Origin: Verrucomicrobiota bacterium
Lineage (GTDB): Bacteria > Verrucomicrobiota > Lentisphaeria > Oligosphaerales > Oligosphaeraceae
Length of the DNA: 64,000 nt
Direction: 5' to 3'
Assembly: GCA_019136135.1 (NCBI GenBank)
Contig: JAGVUR010000087.1
Span: 1-64,000 of the forward strand
The first letter of the stretch is position 1. Each line of letters begins with the position of its first letter. The notes beneath the pieces are model-generated. The model saw nothing but the letters and a program-made list of their open reading frames with translations, was not told where the DNA came from and searched no databases. Shown here one piece after another: positions 4,379 through 30,197 of this stretch. A program made the translations under genes and the position numbers.

Positions 4379-5404
4379 ATGTTGAAGTCCACTATCAATG
4401 TCAGCCACGATTTTATCTTTGCCAAGCTGCATGGCATGTGGGCCAATGCAGCCAAGGACGATCGGCTGGACAAGCTCATCCACGCAGAAAACGTGGAAAG
4501 CCTGATCAGAATGCTGATGGAATTCAACCTCGACGCCTCAAAGCGCAACTCGTTCCACAAGAACCTGATCATGCGCGAGGTCGAGACCTTGTCATACATA
4601 GCCGGGTTATTGGACGACGGTACGGCTGGATTCTACCGTTCATTTATCGAACGGACCTATTTTGAAAACGTCAAGACGCTGTTGAACTATCATTTTTTTC
4701 CCAGGCACGAAACCAACATTGCCTATTTGCTGGTTGACCTTCCGGGCATGCCGCCTGTATCCCTCGCACAGATAACCTCCGCCAAGAATACGGATGATTT
4801 TTTGCGCGAGTTGCCCAAATTGTATTACAGCCAGGAGATTGACGAGATTGTTCGTCGCCTGGATGTTGATCGTGACATTATTGTTGCGGAATGCGAATTG
4901 GACAAGCTCGCCTACAAGAACAAGCTTACTGCAGCGGACAAGGTTCCCTCGGGGGTCCGCAACCAATGCAAGGAATTGATCAAGATGGCGATAGATATCG
5001 TCAACTTGAGCACGCTTTTGCGCAATGTCCATACGTATCATTTGGATCGTGACAGGATCAGCGTGATGTGGATTGGCAATGGCAAGGCATTGAGTCCGGA
5101 GGAGTTGACGGCCCTGTCGGATAGCGAAAGTGTCTTGGAGGCGGTGAGCCGTCTTCCTTCAGCGTTTCAGAATGTGCTGTTGCCGTTTTGCGATGCGGAG
5201 TTGTATGTCAGCGAGAATGCGTTGTGGACGATGCTGTACAAGCGCGCGAAGCAACACTTTTCGAATTACAATCACAGCGACTTGTCAATAATTGCCTTTC
5301 CGTTTTTGAAGAGATTCGAGACATTGAACCTGAGGCGTGTGTACGAAGGGATGCATTTCGGAATTAAATCTTCTGACATGCATGATATGATGATACGTTC
5401 GTAA
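4379..5404 (+). CDS. V/A-type ATPase subunit C (V-type d/AC39-like)
   Basis: A 341-residue, mostly helical soluble protein matching the size of the AC39/subunit C family, the funnel-shaped socket linking the central rotor to the membrane c-ring. It starts 6 bp after the H-subunit gene and ends 29 bp before subunit I. No strong ribosome site is visible, suggesting translational coupling. The family assignment is by length, helical composition and position. In many bacterial operons C lies after the membrane genes; here it is placed before subunit I. Confidence 0.8.
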   Translation: MLKSTINVSHDFIFAKLHGMWANAAKDDRLDKLIHAENVESLIRMLMEFNLDASKRNSFHKNLIMREVETLSYIAGLLDDGTAGFYRSFIERTYFENVKTLLNYHFFPRHETNIAYLLVDLPGMPPVSLAQITSAKNTDDFLRELPKLYYSQEIDEIVRRLDVDRDIIVAECELDKLAYKNKLTAADKVPSGVRNQCKELIKMAIDIVNLSTLLRNVHTYHLDRDRISVMWIGNGKALSPEELTALSDSESVLEAVSRLPSAFQNVLLPFCDAELYVSENALWTMLYKRAKQHFSNYNHSDLSIIAFPFLKRFETLNLRRVYEGMHFGIKSSDMHDMMIRS

Positions 5405-25060: not shown

Positions 25061-26863
25061 TCAGCGGATATCGAATTCGAGTTTCCAGGAGTTATTGTCC
25101 TGCTTTGAATCACACCATATTTGCAGTGTACCGATGTCAGTCAGGTCAGCCCTCAGGGTCACTGGGACCATCGTCGGATGCTTTTGGTCTTCGTCTGCTG
25201 GCAGCGTGACTTGAAGCGGCGGCATTTCGGTAATGTCATCGCAGTTTGCGGCATCAAATCTATCGCCGATTTGATCTTGGTTCCTCGTCGTGGAAGAGAA
25301 GAATCTGAACTCGGTTGGTTCCCCTACGACGAGCGCCAAGCCCTGCTCGTCGATGGTGACCGACGAGCCTTCCTCGAGACCAAAATTGACTACGCAAAGT
25401 GCGTCGACTGGCGGTTGGAAGCCGGGTACTGCAGGCATTGGCGATTCGATACCGATGTAGTAGGAACGTGGCGAACCGGCTTTGATCCTAATCCCCCCTG
25501 CTCTCTTGACATATGCCAGCCAGGCGGCTCCCGCCGCGACCGATTGATCGGCATTGTCTGAACTCAGTACCTGTATATCTTGTTGTGTGGCTGAGTTCCA
25601 GGTTTTGAGCGTGTCGATGATCTTGTTTCTGAAGATATCCGGCTTGGTAACGCCGCCGTTGAATAGCACGACTCCTGGGAGCATCGGATTGCCGTCAGCA
25701 TCTTTGAACGAATGCATGTCTAGGAATGCCGCTAGATGTCTTGTAAATGCTGGGTCTGCTGCGTACTCTAGCGCTATGGTGCGGAGTCCGGTTTTGCGTC
25801 CTTCTATCGGTTTGTCGTTGATGCTTGTTTCCGGGAAGAATCCATCGATCAGTACGTCGTTAAGTTCCTGGTAGGAAAACTTGGTTGTGATCGTACCTCC
25901 CACGATGCCTGAGCCGGTTCCGAGGATCACCAGTTCCTGGTCGTTCGTATCGCCTGATGCCAGTGCTTCCTTTGCTTTGCGGCAGGCATGGGTCAAGGCG
26001 ATGAACTGGCGCTGGTTTAGCTGGATGCCCTTCTCTGCCTTAAGTTTGGCGCTCACGGCAACCGCAAGGGTCAAGTCCATGTTGTCGCCGCCCAGGAGGG
26101 TGTGTTCCCCGACGGCGAGACGTTGCAAGGTCAAGTCCCCATCGACATCTACAACGGCAATAAGCGAGAAGTCAGATGTGCCACCACCAAGGTCGCAGAC
26201 AAGTACGACGTCGCCATCGGAAACATGTTTTCGCCAATCCTCATTATGTTCAGCAAGCCAAGCGTAGAAAGCAGCTTGGGGTTCTTCAAGGAGGGTAAAG
26301 TTAAGTCCGACTTGAGTGGCGGCTTCAACGGTTAGCTCCCGTGCAACGGCGTCGAAAGAAGCAGGTACGGTGAGAACGACTTCCTGGTTTTCCAATCTAA
26401 GGCTTTCATCTTTGGCAGCCATCGTATAGTTCCAGGCTTCCTTCAGATGCTCTAGGATTAGCCTCGCTGCTTCAACAGGTGAGATTTGACGTGTTGCCGA
26501 ACCGTCAAATATGGCTGGAAGGCAGTTTGAATGGCGGTCGATCCGTTCGCTGCATAGCCATGATTTCGATGAACTGACCACCTTTGACGGTGAAGTCGAA
26601 GCCATGTTCCTGGCAAATTCGCCGATAGCAAGGTCTTGTCTTGATTTGATCCAGGGGAGCTTCAGGAGTAAGGGATCAAACTCATTTTTTTCAGGCAAAT
26701 AGATAAAGGACGGCAGGTGGTTGAGGTTGCTGATCTCGCCTGCAGCGACCAGCTGGGGGATAGCAAAATGTTGGGGTAGGGGATTCTCCTGTTCCGTATC
26801 TACATAGGAAAGGACAGTATTAGTAGTTCCAAGGTCGATTCCAATACAATAACGTGATGACAT
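25061..26863 (-). CDS. Hsp70/DnaK-like chaperone, shortened
   Basis: A 600-residue Hsp70-family protein. Phosphate-1 motif YCIGIDLGTTNTVLSY (residues 5-20) and phosphate-2 motif VLVCDLGGGTSDFSLIAV (about 217-234) are clear, and the adenosine motif is near GVVLFNGGVTKPDIF (about 398-412). The remaining 150 residues are a short beta-rich substrate-binding region without the helical lid and EEVD-type tail of DnaK. This matches the YegD/HscA-like variants, not housekeeping DnaK, and no DnaJ or GrpE gene adjoins. AAAGG lies 10 bases upstream. It is divergent from the wHTH-tubulin-kinase operon, sharing a 560-bp intergenic region. Confidence 0.88.
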   Translation of the reverse strand: MSSRYCIGIDLGTTNTVLSYVDTEQENPLPQHFAIPQLVAAGEISNLNHLPSFIYLPEKNEFDPLLLKLPWIKSRQDLAIGEFARNMASTSPSKVVSSSKSWLCSERIDRHSNCLPAIFDGSATRQISPVEAARLILEHLKEAWNYTMAAKDESLRLENQEVVLTVPASFDAVARELTVEAATQVGLNFTLLEEPQAAFYAWLAEHNEDWRKHVSDGDVVLVCDLGGGTSDFSLIAVVDVDGDLTLQRLAVGEHTLLGGDNMDLTLAVAVSAKLKAEKGIQLNQRQFIALTHACRKAKEALASGDTNDQELVILGTGSGIVGGTITTKFSYQELNDVLIDGFFPETSINDKPIEGRKTGLRTIALEYAADPAFTRHLAAFLDMHSFKDADGNPMLPGVVLFNGGVTKPDIFRNKIIDTLKTWNSATQQDIQVLSSDNADQSVAAGAAWLAYVKRAGGIRIKAGSPRSYYIGIESPMPAVPGFQPPVDALCVVNFGLEEGSSVTIDEQGLALVVGEPTEFRFFSSTTRNQDQIGDRFDAANCDDITEMPPLQVTLPADEDQKHPTMVPVTLRADLTDIGTLQIWCDSKQDNNSWKLEFDIR

Positions 26864-27235
26864 ACGAAGGCCTTTAAAGTGTGGGTTTTAACAAGTCTCC
26901 AAAAGGTGGCCTGGAAGGCTCCGGACAGAGGTTTGGTACGCTCCAGGGGGACTTTTGAGGGGATGTAATTTAATGGTTAAAGACAGCATTTTGTGCTGAT
27001 TTTAGTTCATTTATACATCTTTAATATAAGGCATCTACATACTGTTTCAAGATTGTCCATGTAGTATCGGAGAAAGATGAGACATGTAGTAACTCCCTTT
27101 ATACCATCTTGTTGCTTTGAGCAGATTTGCACGGAAACAACCTGTTTGACCACTAGTTTCCCGTTTCTTTCGCTCTTGTTCCACGCATTGTTTCCGTCGT
27201 TACTTTCCCCTGTCTTTTTTTCCGCCCGGTTCAAA
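26864..27235. other. Hsp70 / tubulin-module divergent intergenic region
   Basis: No gene is supported in this 372-bp stretch. A 75-codon reading frame on the minus strand (27007-27234) lacks a ribosome site and family resemblance. Pyrimidine-rich tracts occur at about 27165-27230. The promoter of the Hsp70 gene should lie near its left end but cannot be named with confidence. Confidence 0.4.
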
Positions 27236-27290
27236 CTATACTATACTTTACTTAATTACACTCAACTAGACTACACTATACTGCACTACA
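27236..27290 (+). promoter_or_regulatory. Eleven phased 5-bp repeats CTNNA, candidate centromere/operator
   Basis: Eleven consecutive pentamers in exact register: CTATA, CTATA, CTTTA, CTTAA, TTACA, CTCAA, CTAGA, CTACA, CTATA, CTGCA, CTACA. All have T at position 2 and A at position 5; ten of eleven have C at position 1. The centre varies, so this is not slippage of one unit but maintained spacing of half a helical turn. It lies 47 bp upstream of the promoter of the wHTH gene. In type III partition systems the tubC repeats occupy this place and bind the wHTH protein TubR. Operator or centromere function is inference. Confidence 0.7.
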
Positions 27291-27337
27291 TAAATTAAAT
27301 TTTTTATCGAAGTGATTTATTATGTTGATATTTAGGG

Positions 27338-27365
27338 TTGTTTTTTCATAAAAGTGTAGTATAAT
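27338..27365 (+). promoter_or_regulatory. Sigma-70-type promoter of the wHTH-tubulin-kinase operon
   Basis: A consensus -10 TATAAT (27360-27365) is preceded at 16-bp spacing by a -35-like TTGTTT (27338-27343). Transcription would begin near 27372, about 58 bp before the wHTH start codon. The pentamer array lies immediately upstream, well placed for autoregulation. Confidence 0.65.
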
Positions 27366-27429: not shown

Positions 27430-27783
27430 ATGGCACGTATCAATGATGACAGTGTAGATTTATTCAAGGACCAGCTAGGTCGTCTTGGTGAGTCTCATTT
27501 TCTGATATTGTACTGGTGTGCTCAGGGTGAGGACAAGGGGATCAAGTACAACATCACGAATTGTTTTGACGATTTAAAGCACGTTGGCATTACCCGTACG
27601 AAGCAGACTGCTGTCAGCATGATTGAGGCTTTATGGTCGTTATGTTTCATCGACATACGCGAGGAGCGCAATCGCAAGAACATTTACATCACGAAGCATG
27701 GTGCTCGTGCCTTGCAACAGTTGGTTGTCATGGGTGGTTTCAGCGTGAAATCCTCGTCTTTTTTGGAGGGTAATCAGGCATGA
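27430..27783 (+). CDS. Winged-helix DNA-binding protein, TubR-like by context
   Basis: A 117-residue protein. The helical N-terminus LFKDQLGRLGESHFLILYW is followed by a helix-turn-helix (about 45-75, including GITRTKQTAVSMIEALWSL) and a wing IDIREERNRKNIYITKHGARALQQLV (about 73-98), as in MarR/PadR-type and TubR proteins. ATG 27430 directly follows an in-frame TTG. The last codon and stop overlap the start of the tubulin-like gene (ATGA), so the two are translationally coupled. Small size, winged-helix fold, position in front of a tubulin-like GTPase and downstream of an iterated sequence all parallel TubR of type III plasmid partition. No direct sequence identity to TubR can be claimed; it could instead be an ordinary repressor of the operon. 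Confidence 0.75.
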   Translation: MARINDDSVDLFKDQLGRLGESHFLILYWCAQGEDKGIKYNITNCFDDLKHVGITRTKQTAVSMIEALWSLCFIDIREERNRKNIYITKHGARALQQLVVMGGFSVKSSSFLEGNQA

Positions 27784-28904
27784 AGGTAATCGGGATCGGC
27801 GGTGCTGGCGGCAAGATAGCCGCGAAGATGGACGATTCAGCCATCTTGGTTAATGTCTCGAGGATTGAGTTGGAGAAGGTCGAAGGTGGTGGTGAGCGCA
27901 TCATCGCCCCTGTTCAATCGACATTGGGTCAATTTCGCGGATCCCGCAAGGATCCCGAGATTGGTCACGACGCGTATTTGACGATTCGCCGTCGTCTTCA
28001 AGACATTGTTGTCGGGGGGATGGTTTTCAGTTCCACCGGCGGTGGCACTGGCAACGGCATTACGACCGGGATATTGCAAGGGATATCCAGCATTGACGAC
28101 GAGTTGGGGAATCAGGGCAGCACGATTCCTGTCCAGGATCGGACCTTCTTTTGTCTGATACTGCCTTACGACGGAATGGAGTCGGCTGAATATGTCAACA
28201 ACAGCATTGACTTCATGACCGGTCCCTTGGCCGACGTGATCGACAAGGGTTGCACTGGGAACATTGTCCTTTTCAGCAACAAAATGAAATTCACTGAAAA
28301 GATTGCCGAGGAGCAATACAATGAAATGATAGTGAATTCATTAAAGGTATTCATGGCGATTCCGGACAAGAACGAAAACATGAAGTTATTGGAGAGTCAC
28401 ATTGACCACGAGGACTTTACTGCTTTCATTGCGAAGCCATTCTTCAACCACTTCAACTACTTTGATTACGACCCATCGAAATCCTTTGGTAATCAGTTGA
28501 AGGCGAATTCCAATCCCTTATTGCTCGATGCCGAGGAGCCGATTGAGGCGATGTTCTTGCTGGAGGTTCCATCGGGTCAGGATCACACGATATTCTACGA
28601 CATTGTGAAGTACTTTGTCGACTGCAAGATTCCTCCTGTTTACAGTGTTGTCGAGAATCCTGATTTATCGAAGCCATTTGTTACGGTATCTCGTTTGTAT
28701 TCACGGAAGCCTTACGAGTTATTGGACGACTTCAACAAGAAGAATTTGGAATTGGCGGACGCAAAGGTTCAGAAGTCACTGGAGCAGCACGTTGTCCTTG
28801 AAAAGCTTGAAGTTAATTTTGACAAGGAAGCCAAGCGCGCCGGGAAGCAAAAAGGAGTAGGTGACGATGTGCTTGCGACGTTGAAGCGTATTGGCAAGCT
28901 CTGA
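27780..28904 (+). CDS. Divergent tubulin/FtsZ-superfamily GTPase (TubZ-like)
   Basis: A 374-residue protein. Tubulin-superfamily loops appear in order: T1 GIGGAGGKIA (residues 5-14), T3 DPEIG (58-62), T4 signature GGGTGNG (87-93), a T6-like asparagine in LFSNKMK (N167) and the catalytic T7 loop HIDHEDF (207-213), whose acidic residues activate GTP in the next subunit. Thus both GTP binding and polymer-stimulated hydrolysis appear intact. The C-terminal conserved peptide of FtsZ is absent. Instead the tail (about 348-374) is basic and flexible, as in TubZ, where it binds TubR-DNA. GGAGG lies 11 bases upstream of ATG. It is unlikely to be the housekeeping FtsZ: no ftsA, ftsQ or mur genes adjoin and the sequence is very divergent. 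Confidence 0.85.
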   Translation: MKVIGIGGAGGKIAAKMDDSAILVNVSRIELEKVEGGGERIIAPVQSTLGQFRGSRKDPEIGHDAYLTIRRRLQDIVVGGMVFSSTGGGTGNGITTGILQGISSIDDELGNQGSTIPVQDRTFFCLILPYDGMESAEYVNNSIDFMTGPLADVIDKGCTGNIVLFSNKMKFTEKIAEEQYNEMIVNSLKVFMAIPDKNENMKLLESHIDHEDFTAFIAKPFFNHFNYFDYDPSKSFGNQLKANSNPLLLDAEEPIEAMFLLEVPSGQDHTIFYDIVKYFVDCKIPPVYSVVENPDLSKPFVTVSRLYSRKPYELLDDFNKKNLELADAKVQKSLEQHVVLEKLEVNFDKEAKRAGKQKGVGDDVLATLKRIGKL

Positions 28905-28977
28905 GTCTGTGGGCGCGTGGTTGTAGCCATGACTGGAAAGTGAGAGAAACCGAGAATATTAAGGATTGCGTAAGCCG

Positions 28978-30132
28978 ATGACTGACCTGAAAGACAGTGA
29001 CAAGCCGGAGCAGGGGCATATCGAGCCGGAGCAGGTTGTTCTGAGCAACAAGATCAAGACGCGTGTATTGGTTCTGGATGCTCTTGGTGTAGGCGGGGAA
29101 ATATCCCTGGAGTCAGATACCGCCAGGAACGAAAGCAGTACGACTCGCAGTTCGACCACGAATTTGTCAAGGCGCCGGTATTTGGATCGTCGTGATGACA
29201 TTCGTTCGATACGCGCTTCCTTTGAGGCTGCTCAGGCTGACGATTATGAAATCAAGGAAGTGATGGCACGCGGTGCGGAGGCGGTATTGTACCGTGCTGT
29301 TTGCGGTGCGTTCACGTTCTGTTCCAAGTCGATCCGCAATGGATGGAACAAGTGGCTTGGGAGTTCTGCGTCGAAGGGTGTTGAGGAGAAATTGGACAAT
29401 GTCTCGTACAAGACCAAGACTCGTCACATTCAGAACGAGTATGCGATATCTCAGATTTTGAATGAAGAGAATGCGATGCCGATTGTGCGTATTTACTCAT
29501 TGCGTCGCGTCCGGAGGTTTGGCATTGAGCTTGGCTACGACTTGTTGATGGAGTATCTGAGCGGTCACGATTTAGGTGACAAGATATTGGGCAAGGTCTT
29601 GCCGATAGAGGACAAGATCCGCGTCATGTATCAGGCTGTCCAGGCGTTGTCGTTCATGCACAAGAAGAGGGTCATCCACTTGGACATCAAGCCTTCGAAC
29701 TTCATGTTGGTCAGTGGAAAGGTCAAGTTGATTGACTTTGGCGTATCGGTATTGGCCGGTCACCATCCTCGTGCGATTACTGGCACAGGTGGTTACTTGT
29801 CACCGGAGCAGGTGTGCAAGGAAATGGTTGATGAGCGTTCGGACTTGTTTGCATTGGGCATTGCGTTCAGCGTATTCTTAGGCGGGCGTCCATTGACTCA
29901 GCCTCAGGATGAACTGGTGACGAAGCATTGCCGCGACGAAGCCCGTTATCACTTGGAGCATACGGAAACGCCAGCTGTGGCGGATATCCCTGCGCTGTCC
30001 GAGATGCCTCTTATCACGGAAGCCATCAGGAGTTGCACGATCATGCGTCGTGACAAGCGGATGCCTTCTTGCGCTCTGTTGCTGGCCAAGTTGCGCGAGG
30101 GCGCCGAGAAGTATGGGATTGCGTTGAACTAG
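28978..30132 (+). CDS. Hanks-type Ser/Thr protein kinase, soluble
   Basis: A 384-residue kinase. Residues 1-85 are polar and probably disordered. The kinase domain (about 88-375) has a glycine-loop remnant MARGAEAVLY (96-105), the ATP lysine in FCSKSIR (K117), an alpha-C glutamate in QNEYAI (E154), catalytic HLDIKPSNF (234-242), IDFG (252-255) and activation-segment end YLSPEQ (273-278). All catalytic residues are present. An insertion of about 30 residues lies between the lysine strand and helix C. There is no transmembrane helix, PASTA or other sensor domain, unlike PknB. The start ATG 28978 follows AAGGA by 12 bases. It lies 73 bp after the tubulin-like gene with no terminator between, so it is probably in the same operon. 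Confidence 0.92.
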   Translation: MTDLKDSDKPEQGHIEPEQVVLSNKIKTRVLVLDALGVGGEISLESDTARNESSTTRSSTTNLSRRRYLDRRDDIRSIRASFEAAQADDYEIKEVMARGAEAVLYRAVCGAFTFCSKSIRNGWNKWLGSSASKGVEEKLDNVSYKTKTRHIQNEYAISQILNEENAMPIVRIYSLRRVRRFGIELGYDLLMEYLSGHDLGDKILGKVLPIEDKIRVMYQAVQALSFMHKKRVIHLDIKPSNFMLVSGKVKLIDFGVSVLAGHHPRAITGTGGYLSPEQVCKEMVDERSDLFALGIAFSVFLGGRPLTQPQDELVTKHCRDEARYHLEHTETPAVADIPALSEMPLITEAIRSCTIMRRDKRMPSCALLLAKLREGAEKYGIALN

Positions 30133-30160: not shown

Positions 30161-30197
30161 AAGTCGCGTCCGAGTCATATCGGGTGCGGCTTTTTTT
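30161..30197 (+). terminator. Terminator after the kinase gene
   Basis: AGTCGCGTCCGA and TCGGGTGCGGCT form a 12-bp stem with two G-U pairs and a six-base loop, followed by TTTTTTT (30191-30197). It closes the wHTH-tubulin-kinase operon before argJ. Confidence 0.8.

Follow-up and report, generated by a model that had tools for sequence, protein, structure and literature searches.

Tubulins move chromosomes in eukaryotes. In bacteria, to our knowledge, they move only plasmid and phage DNA, and we know of no characterised TubZRC (type III) partition system carried by anything other than a plasmid or a phage. Odd cell biology is already known in the Verrucomicrobiota, the phylum of the bacterium analyzed here. 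In the plasmid systems, the centromere tubC consists of direct repeats arranged in two or three blocks at one locus upstream of tubRZ; it is bound by the autorepressor TubR and doubles as an operator (PMC5016525; PMC7762940). On bacterial chromosomes, the 20% around oriC contains the par operons and the majority of parS sites (PMC7022226). An open-access literature search, with most subscription papers outside its coverage, returned no paper reporting a chromosomal system of the kind described below.

The window, a 64,000-nucleotide stretch from a member of the class Lentisphaeria, contains an operon encoding a small winged-helix (wHTH) protein, a tubulin-like GTPase and a Ser/Thr kinase (Table 1). 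The first-pass annotation had proposed a TubZR-like filament system with an added kinase. Re-reading the ORFs returned the same three genes, each starting with ATG: the stop codon of the wHTH gene and the start of the GTPase gene overlap in an ATGA, and 73 bp separate the GTPase stop from the kinase start. The further statement that one promoter and one terminator bracket the set holds for the terminator; the promoter scan listed no scanner-grade promoter for the operon, and the sequence TTGTTT-N16-TATAAT, which falls below the scanner threshold, is plausible by eye only. Ordinary core genes flank the operon, with TGT and an HSP70-like gene upstream, both on the minus strand, and ArgJ and a PfkB kinase downstream. 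The divergent neighbour (25061-26863) encodes an unusual HSP70-like protein, with 76 bits against PF00012 and a sub-threshold match to MreB, and an HSP70-like gene is also found near the operon in two related loci (L003 and L082). A third element of the locus, absent from the first reading, is an array of 5-bp repeats upstream of the wHTH gene.

Table 1. Features of the operon and its upstream region, in window coordinates
Feature	Position	Strand	Basis or remark
Distal iteron array, ACTNN units, candidate tubC-like centromere	27235..27292	.	10/12 units in phase
Plausible sigma-70 promoter, TTGTTT-N16-TATAAT	27338..27365	+	by eye
Promoter-proximal pentamer block AGTGTAGTATAAT, overlaps -10, candidate operator	27353..27365	.	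last unit imperfect (AAT)
TubR-like winged-helix protein, 117 aa	27430..27783	+	PDB profile, model, Foldseek
TubZ/FtsZ-fold GTPase, 374 aa, conserved basic C-terminal peptide LKRIGKL	27780..28904	+	profile, model
Soluble Ser/Thr kinase, 384 aa, later operon addition in one family	28978..30132	+	profile and distribution
Intrinsic-terminator-like hairpin, 13 pairs, T tail, 3' of kinase	30161..30192	+	terminator scan

The GTPase has the tubulin/FtsZ fold and its catalytic loops. In a family alignment of 28 sequences from related genomes (A1; mean column identity 71%), the loops T1 (GIGGAG), T4 (GGGTGNG) and T7 (HIDHEDF) recognized at first reading are conserved across the 28 homologues, together with a T3-like loop, GQFRGSRKDPEIG. 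Within T7, H207, D209, E211 and D212 are invariant; both catalytic aspartates are thus present in all sequences, and a histidine occupies the place where FtsZ has an asparagine. Similarity to described families is distant: the protein scores 25.1 bits against Pfam Tubulin PF00091, below the cut-off of 33, and has no match to the Tubulin_2 domain in a Pfam search. The A1 profile, compared with all PDB sequences, first retrieves TubZ/RepX of Bacillus cereus (4ei7, E 7e-6) and next an Odinarchaeal FtsZ1, with a modest GTPase-to-TubZ sequence score of 28.9 bits. A structure model (pLDDT 85) ranks FtsZ structures first in a fold search, with TubZ close behind, and a viral fold library returns phage FtsZ/PhuZ proteins, which superpose less well than the PDB matches. 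At the C-terminus, after a low-confidence stretch of the model, lies a conserved basic tail, LKRxGKL.

The wHTH protein gave nothing usable in a library profile search. A profile built from 30 sequences of related genomes (A3) has TubR of pBM400 (4asn) as its first match among all PDB sequences (E 0.0015), and the structure prediction and Foldseek search that the first-pass annotation had put forward as a check lead to the same protein: the model is of high confidence (pLDDT 94) and its top match is TubR 4asn (E 5.7e-4, TM 0.81 on the target), with MarR-like folds close behind. The small TubR-type gene lies directly upstream of the GTPase gene wherever both are whole on a contig, that is, in 57 genomes among the 198 surveyed in the class, and it is never found other than immediately 5' of the GTPase. 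The GTPase occurs without it in two genomes only (G009 and G054), in which the GTPase is fragmented or starts at a contig end.

Surveyed more widely, the GTPase is present in 44 of the 48 genomes of the order and in 59 of the 198 genomes of the class, with a sharp boundary; a sixtieth genome (G172) has a weak match that resembles FtsZ and is not counted. Outside the class, strong matches were found in only two genomes of the phylum sample (G251 and G361); in the closed genome G251, the operon is located at 1.43 Mb. Conservation in 59 of 198 genomes argues that the operon is not a chance assembly, and the doubt raised at the outset, that the three genes might never co-occur elsewhere, is lifted: they do occur together in other genomes. 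A maximum-likelihood tree of 41 GTPases fits the GTDB families with the minimum number of changes, and tblastn searches of plasmid and phage records returned no homologue. Because of this distribution, of the agreement between tree and taxonomy and of the lack of a plasmid or phage homologue, the operon is a chromosomal, single-copy, vertically inherited core system. Carriage on a plasmid or phage, common to the characterised type III members and not a mechanistic trait, is missing here. That same habit of all characterised TubZRC systems is what would lead one to see in the locus what is left of a partition module from an integrated plasmid or phage, a reading largely refuted, and in our estimate highly improbable, given the strong conservation in about 59 genomes, the inheritance just described and the TGT, HSP70, ArgJ and PfkB neighbours. 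A defence system was also considered and set aside, PADLOC having given generic kinase matches only.

Inheritance of the kinase follows another course. It scores 102 bits against Pkinase and retains the catalytic residues noticed at first reading, K117, the HLD motif (non-RD; HLDIKPSN) and DFG, so that it is likely to be active. In the window's own family, the kinase and GTPase genes are adjacent and co-oriented in 28 of 28 operon-bearing genomes. In four sister families (f5, f6, f7 and f10), a kinase ortholog with 45-51% identity lies on another contig, one genome of family f3 has a weaker kinase match, and none was found in the rest of the class at the threshold used. A kinase linked to the operon in one family only, and unlinked or absent elsewhere, was therefore recruited late. 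As an ancestral partner it is rejected, being unlinked in four sister families and mostly absent elsewhere in the class. Of the system first proposed, the core of wHTH protein and GTPase stands, while the kinase belongs to the operon of one family and not to the ancestral module.

The array begins at 27235 with the units ACTAT ACTAT ACTTT ACTTA ATTAC ACTCA ACTAG ACTAC ACTAT ACTGC ACTAC. With A[CG]T scored at 5-bp steps, the array has 10 of its 12 units in phase, against at most 5 in shuffled sequence. Related loci carry the same element: the consensus over 343 units in 42 loci is ACTAY, the array exceeds all 40 of its own shuffles in 37 loci, and at least one phased run, often as two blocks, occurs in 41; a long array was not found in 5 of the 42. 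The distal array comprises 10-12 units, about 100-460 bp upstream and apart from the promoter block, and in many loci ACTNN flips to NNAGT, making a palindromic centre. Many loci also have a second, short block near the start, which covers the -10 where checked; 24 of the 42 have a phased run of 3 or more of 4 pentamers no further than 170 bp from the start. A genome-wide scan for six units with up to two mismatches located the array in its own 4.74-Mb genome at the operon only, which rules out a dispersed genome repeat. Of the relatives, only two have extra sites: G016, with two, and G025, where they are unrelated decamer repeats. The short ACTNN arrays of G016 lie on contig C189 near 4741-4768 (L103) and on contig C160 near 1075-1102 (L128), and one of them precedes an ORF resembling a HydF-type GTPase.

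At sequence level, then, the locus offers a candidate centromere: a repeat array, at a single place, upstream of a tubR-like gene. Because the PDB profile searches rank TubR and TubZ first, the fold search of the wHTH protein ranks TubR first, and the array upstream is tubC-like, the TubZR-like reading of this chromosomal operon is well supported as a prediction. The array also sits where an operator would, which weighs against partition. The wHTH protein might thus be an autorepressor and the array its regulatory site, the filament serving shape, polarity or some other task with no DNA cargo. Such an arrangement would fit the second pentamer block over the -10, the position of all sites upstream of their own operon, the fact that small wHTH proteins are mostly regulators and the MarR-like folds that follow TubR closely. 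It accords poorly with a distal array so long and so far upstream of the promoter block, with a wHTH protein that is specifically TubR-like by both sequence and fold, and with an origin-proximal location, not expected of an operator; we regard it as unlikely, while giving it real weight.

The location was assessed by GC skew, computed from samples of each sequence. In the closed 5.73-Mb chromosome of G025, the cumulative skew has its minimum at ~2.05 Mb and its maximum at ~5.04 Mb, roughly opposite, and the operon, at 2.097 Mb, is 44 kb from the minimum, or 1.5% of half the genome. In two near-complete genomes of one genus (G058 and G059), each in two large contigs, the operon is about 26-27 kb from the minus-to-plus switch, which in G059 is a local minimum read from samples, the contig-wide minimum being at the contig edge. 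In a further near-complete genome (G051), whose skew is weak, the distance is about 85 kb. In the window, both flanks of the operon have positive skew and no switch occurs, so the switch there must be more than 27 kb from the operon. Overall, the operon apparently lies near the replication origin. A possible second skew minimum was seen in G058, in which contigs C1 and C2 each follow a separate skew pattern that includes both signs; this genome could consist of two chromosomes or have undergone a large rearrangement.

Proximity to the skew minimum could be taken to mean that the array is part of the origin itself and the wHTH protein an initiator or origin-unwinding factor, and TubZ of pXO1 does owe its name RepX to a role in replication (cited in PMC2875224). 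Several observations make this very improbable: dnaA is present in 13 of 13 genomes tested, located away from the operon; no DnaA-box cluster was found in the window, nor beside the operon in G025, G058 and G059; and the skew switches 26-85 kb off, not at the array. In G051 only, three DnaA boxes occur within about 240 bp, some 12 kb from the operon. Nor is the locus a ParABS system with parS sites and a chromosomal ParB: canonical parS, allowing up to one mismatch, does not belong to the core of the class, and ParB has a patchy distribution. Class members that have no tubulin operon are likewise without canonical parS and without a core ParB, and for this reason the operon is not a simple replacement for ParABS.

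The GTPase is not the genome's ordinary FtsZ, a possibility that the first-pass annotation had left to be checked. A lineage-tuned profile found FtsZ as a separate, diverged gene on another contig (C88:4648-5583); since PF00091 misses it, we had considered FtsZ lost, an idea dropped once this copy was found. In the window's family (f1), FtsZ is either diverged or, as in most genera, cut down to its N-terminal half plus the C-terminal peptide: the T7 loop and the C-terminal domain are gone, whereas the peptide LDVPTFQRR is kept. In two genomes (G038 and G039), the matched FtsZ frame contains a stop codon. Such decay, beside a strongly conserved GTPase, would be expected if the latter were a second division or septum-positioning tubulin that the wHTH protein anchors near the origin and that replaces FtsZ. 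We consider this improbable, as the operon is equally conserved in families with full-length FtsZ and hence predates the decay, and as the GTPase has no FtsZ-type C-terminal peptide (LDIPTFQRR).

We conclude that the locus probably encodes a chromosomal type III (TubZRC-like) partition system, with a role in partition or positioning of the origin region. The TubR-like protein would coat the ACTAY array that precedes its gene and would repress its own operon from the second block, the one on the -10. The tubulin-like protein would form a filament driven by GTP, to which the resulting nucleoprotein complex would attach, probably via the conserved basic C-terminal peptide of the GTPase; this filament may then move or position the array and, with the array, the region of the replication origin. 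The kinase recruited in the window's family may tune the filament or its tail by phosphorylation. Since the layout is plasmid-like, and the operon core, chromosomal and apparently near the origin, these cells may use a tubulin to segregate their chromosome. In its strongest form the proposal is more tentative: that a TubZ-like filament pulls or positions the origin region of Lentisphaeria, via a TubR-like protein on a pentamer centromere, with no canonical ParABS and with kinase control in one family, could make this the first chromosomal tubulin segregation machine, although we would not yet bet on it. If true, the presence of a core TubZRC-like system next to the origin would mean that a bacterial chromosome is moved by a tubulin. 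Chromosome segregation in these ParABS-poor bacteria, which live in the gut and in the environment, becomes directly testable, and a defined candidate centromere sequence is supplied.

Four described systems invite comparison. The FtsZl-1/Tubulin_2 operons (PMC2875224) also encode an FtsZ-like protein, sometimes with Ser/Thr kinases nearby, but the GTPase described here has no VWA or OmpA neighbours and is accompanied instead by a wHTH protein and an iteron array. FtsZ shares the fold and the GTPase loops; the present protein differs in its C-terminus and its sub-cut-off Pfam score, and has no division-gene neighbours in the window. Chromosomal ParABS likewise combines an origin-proximal cis site beside the operon with a DNA-binding protein and an NTPase, whereas here a tubulin GTPase takes the place of ParA, with neither a core ParB nor canonical parS. 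The TubZRC systems of pBtoxis, pBM400, pXO1 and the Clostridium botulinum phage c-st differ from this operon in that it is chromosomal, core, single-copy, vertically inherited and apparently near the origin, in its 5-bp units, in a GTPase tail shorter than that of TubZ, in the kinase present in the operon of one family, and in sequences very far from the Bacillus proteins. They share with it the order of centromere repeats, wHTH gene and tubulin GTPase gene, the grouping of repeats at one locus in blocks of which one lies on the promoter, the wHTH topology (alpha1-4, wing, alpha5), and the two proteins, TubR 4asn and TubZ 4ei7, that head the PDB profile matches.
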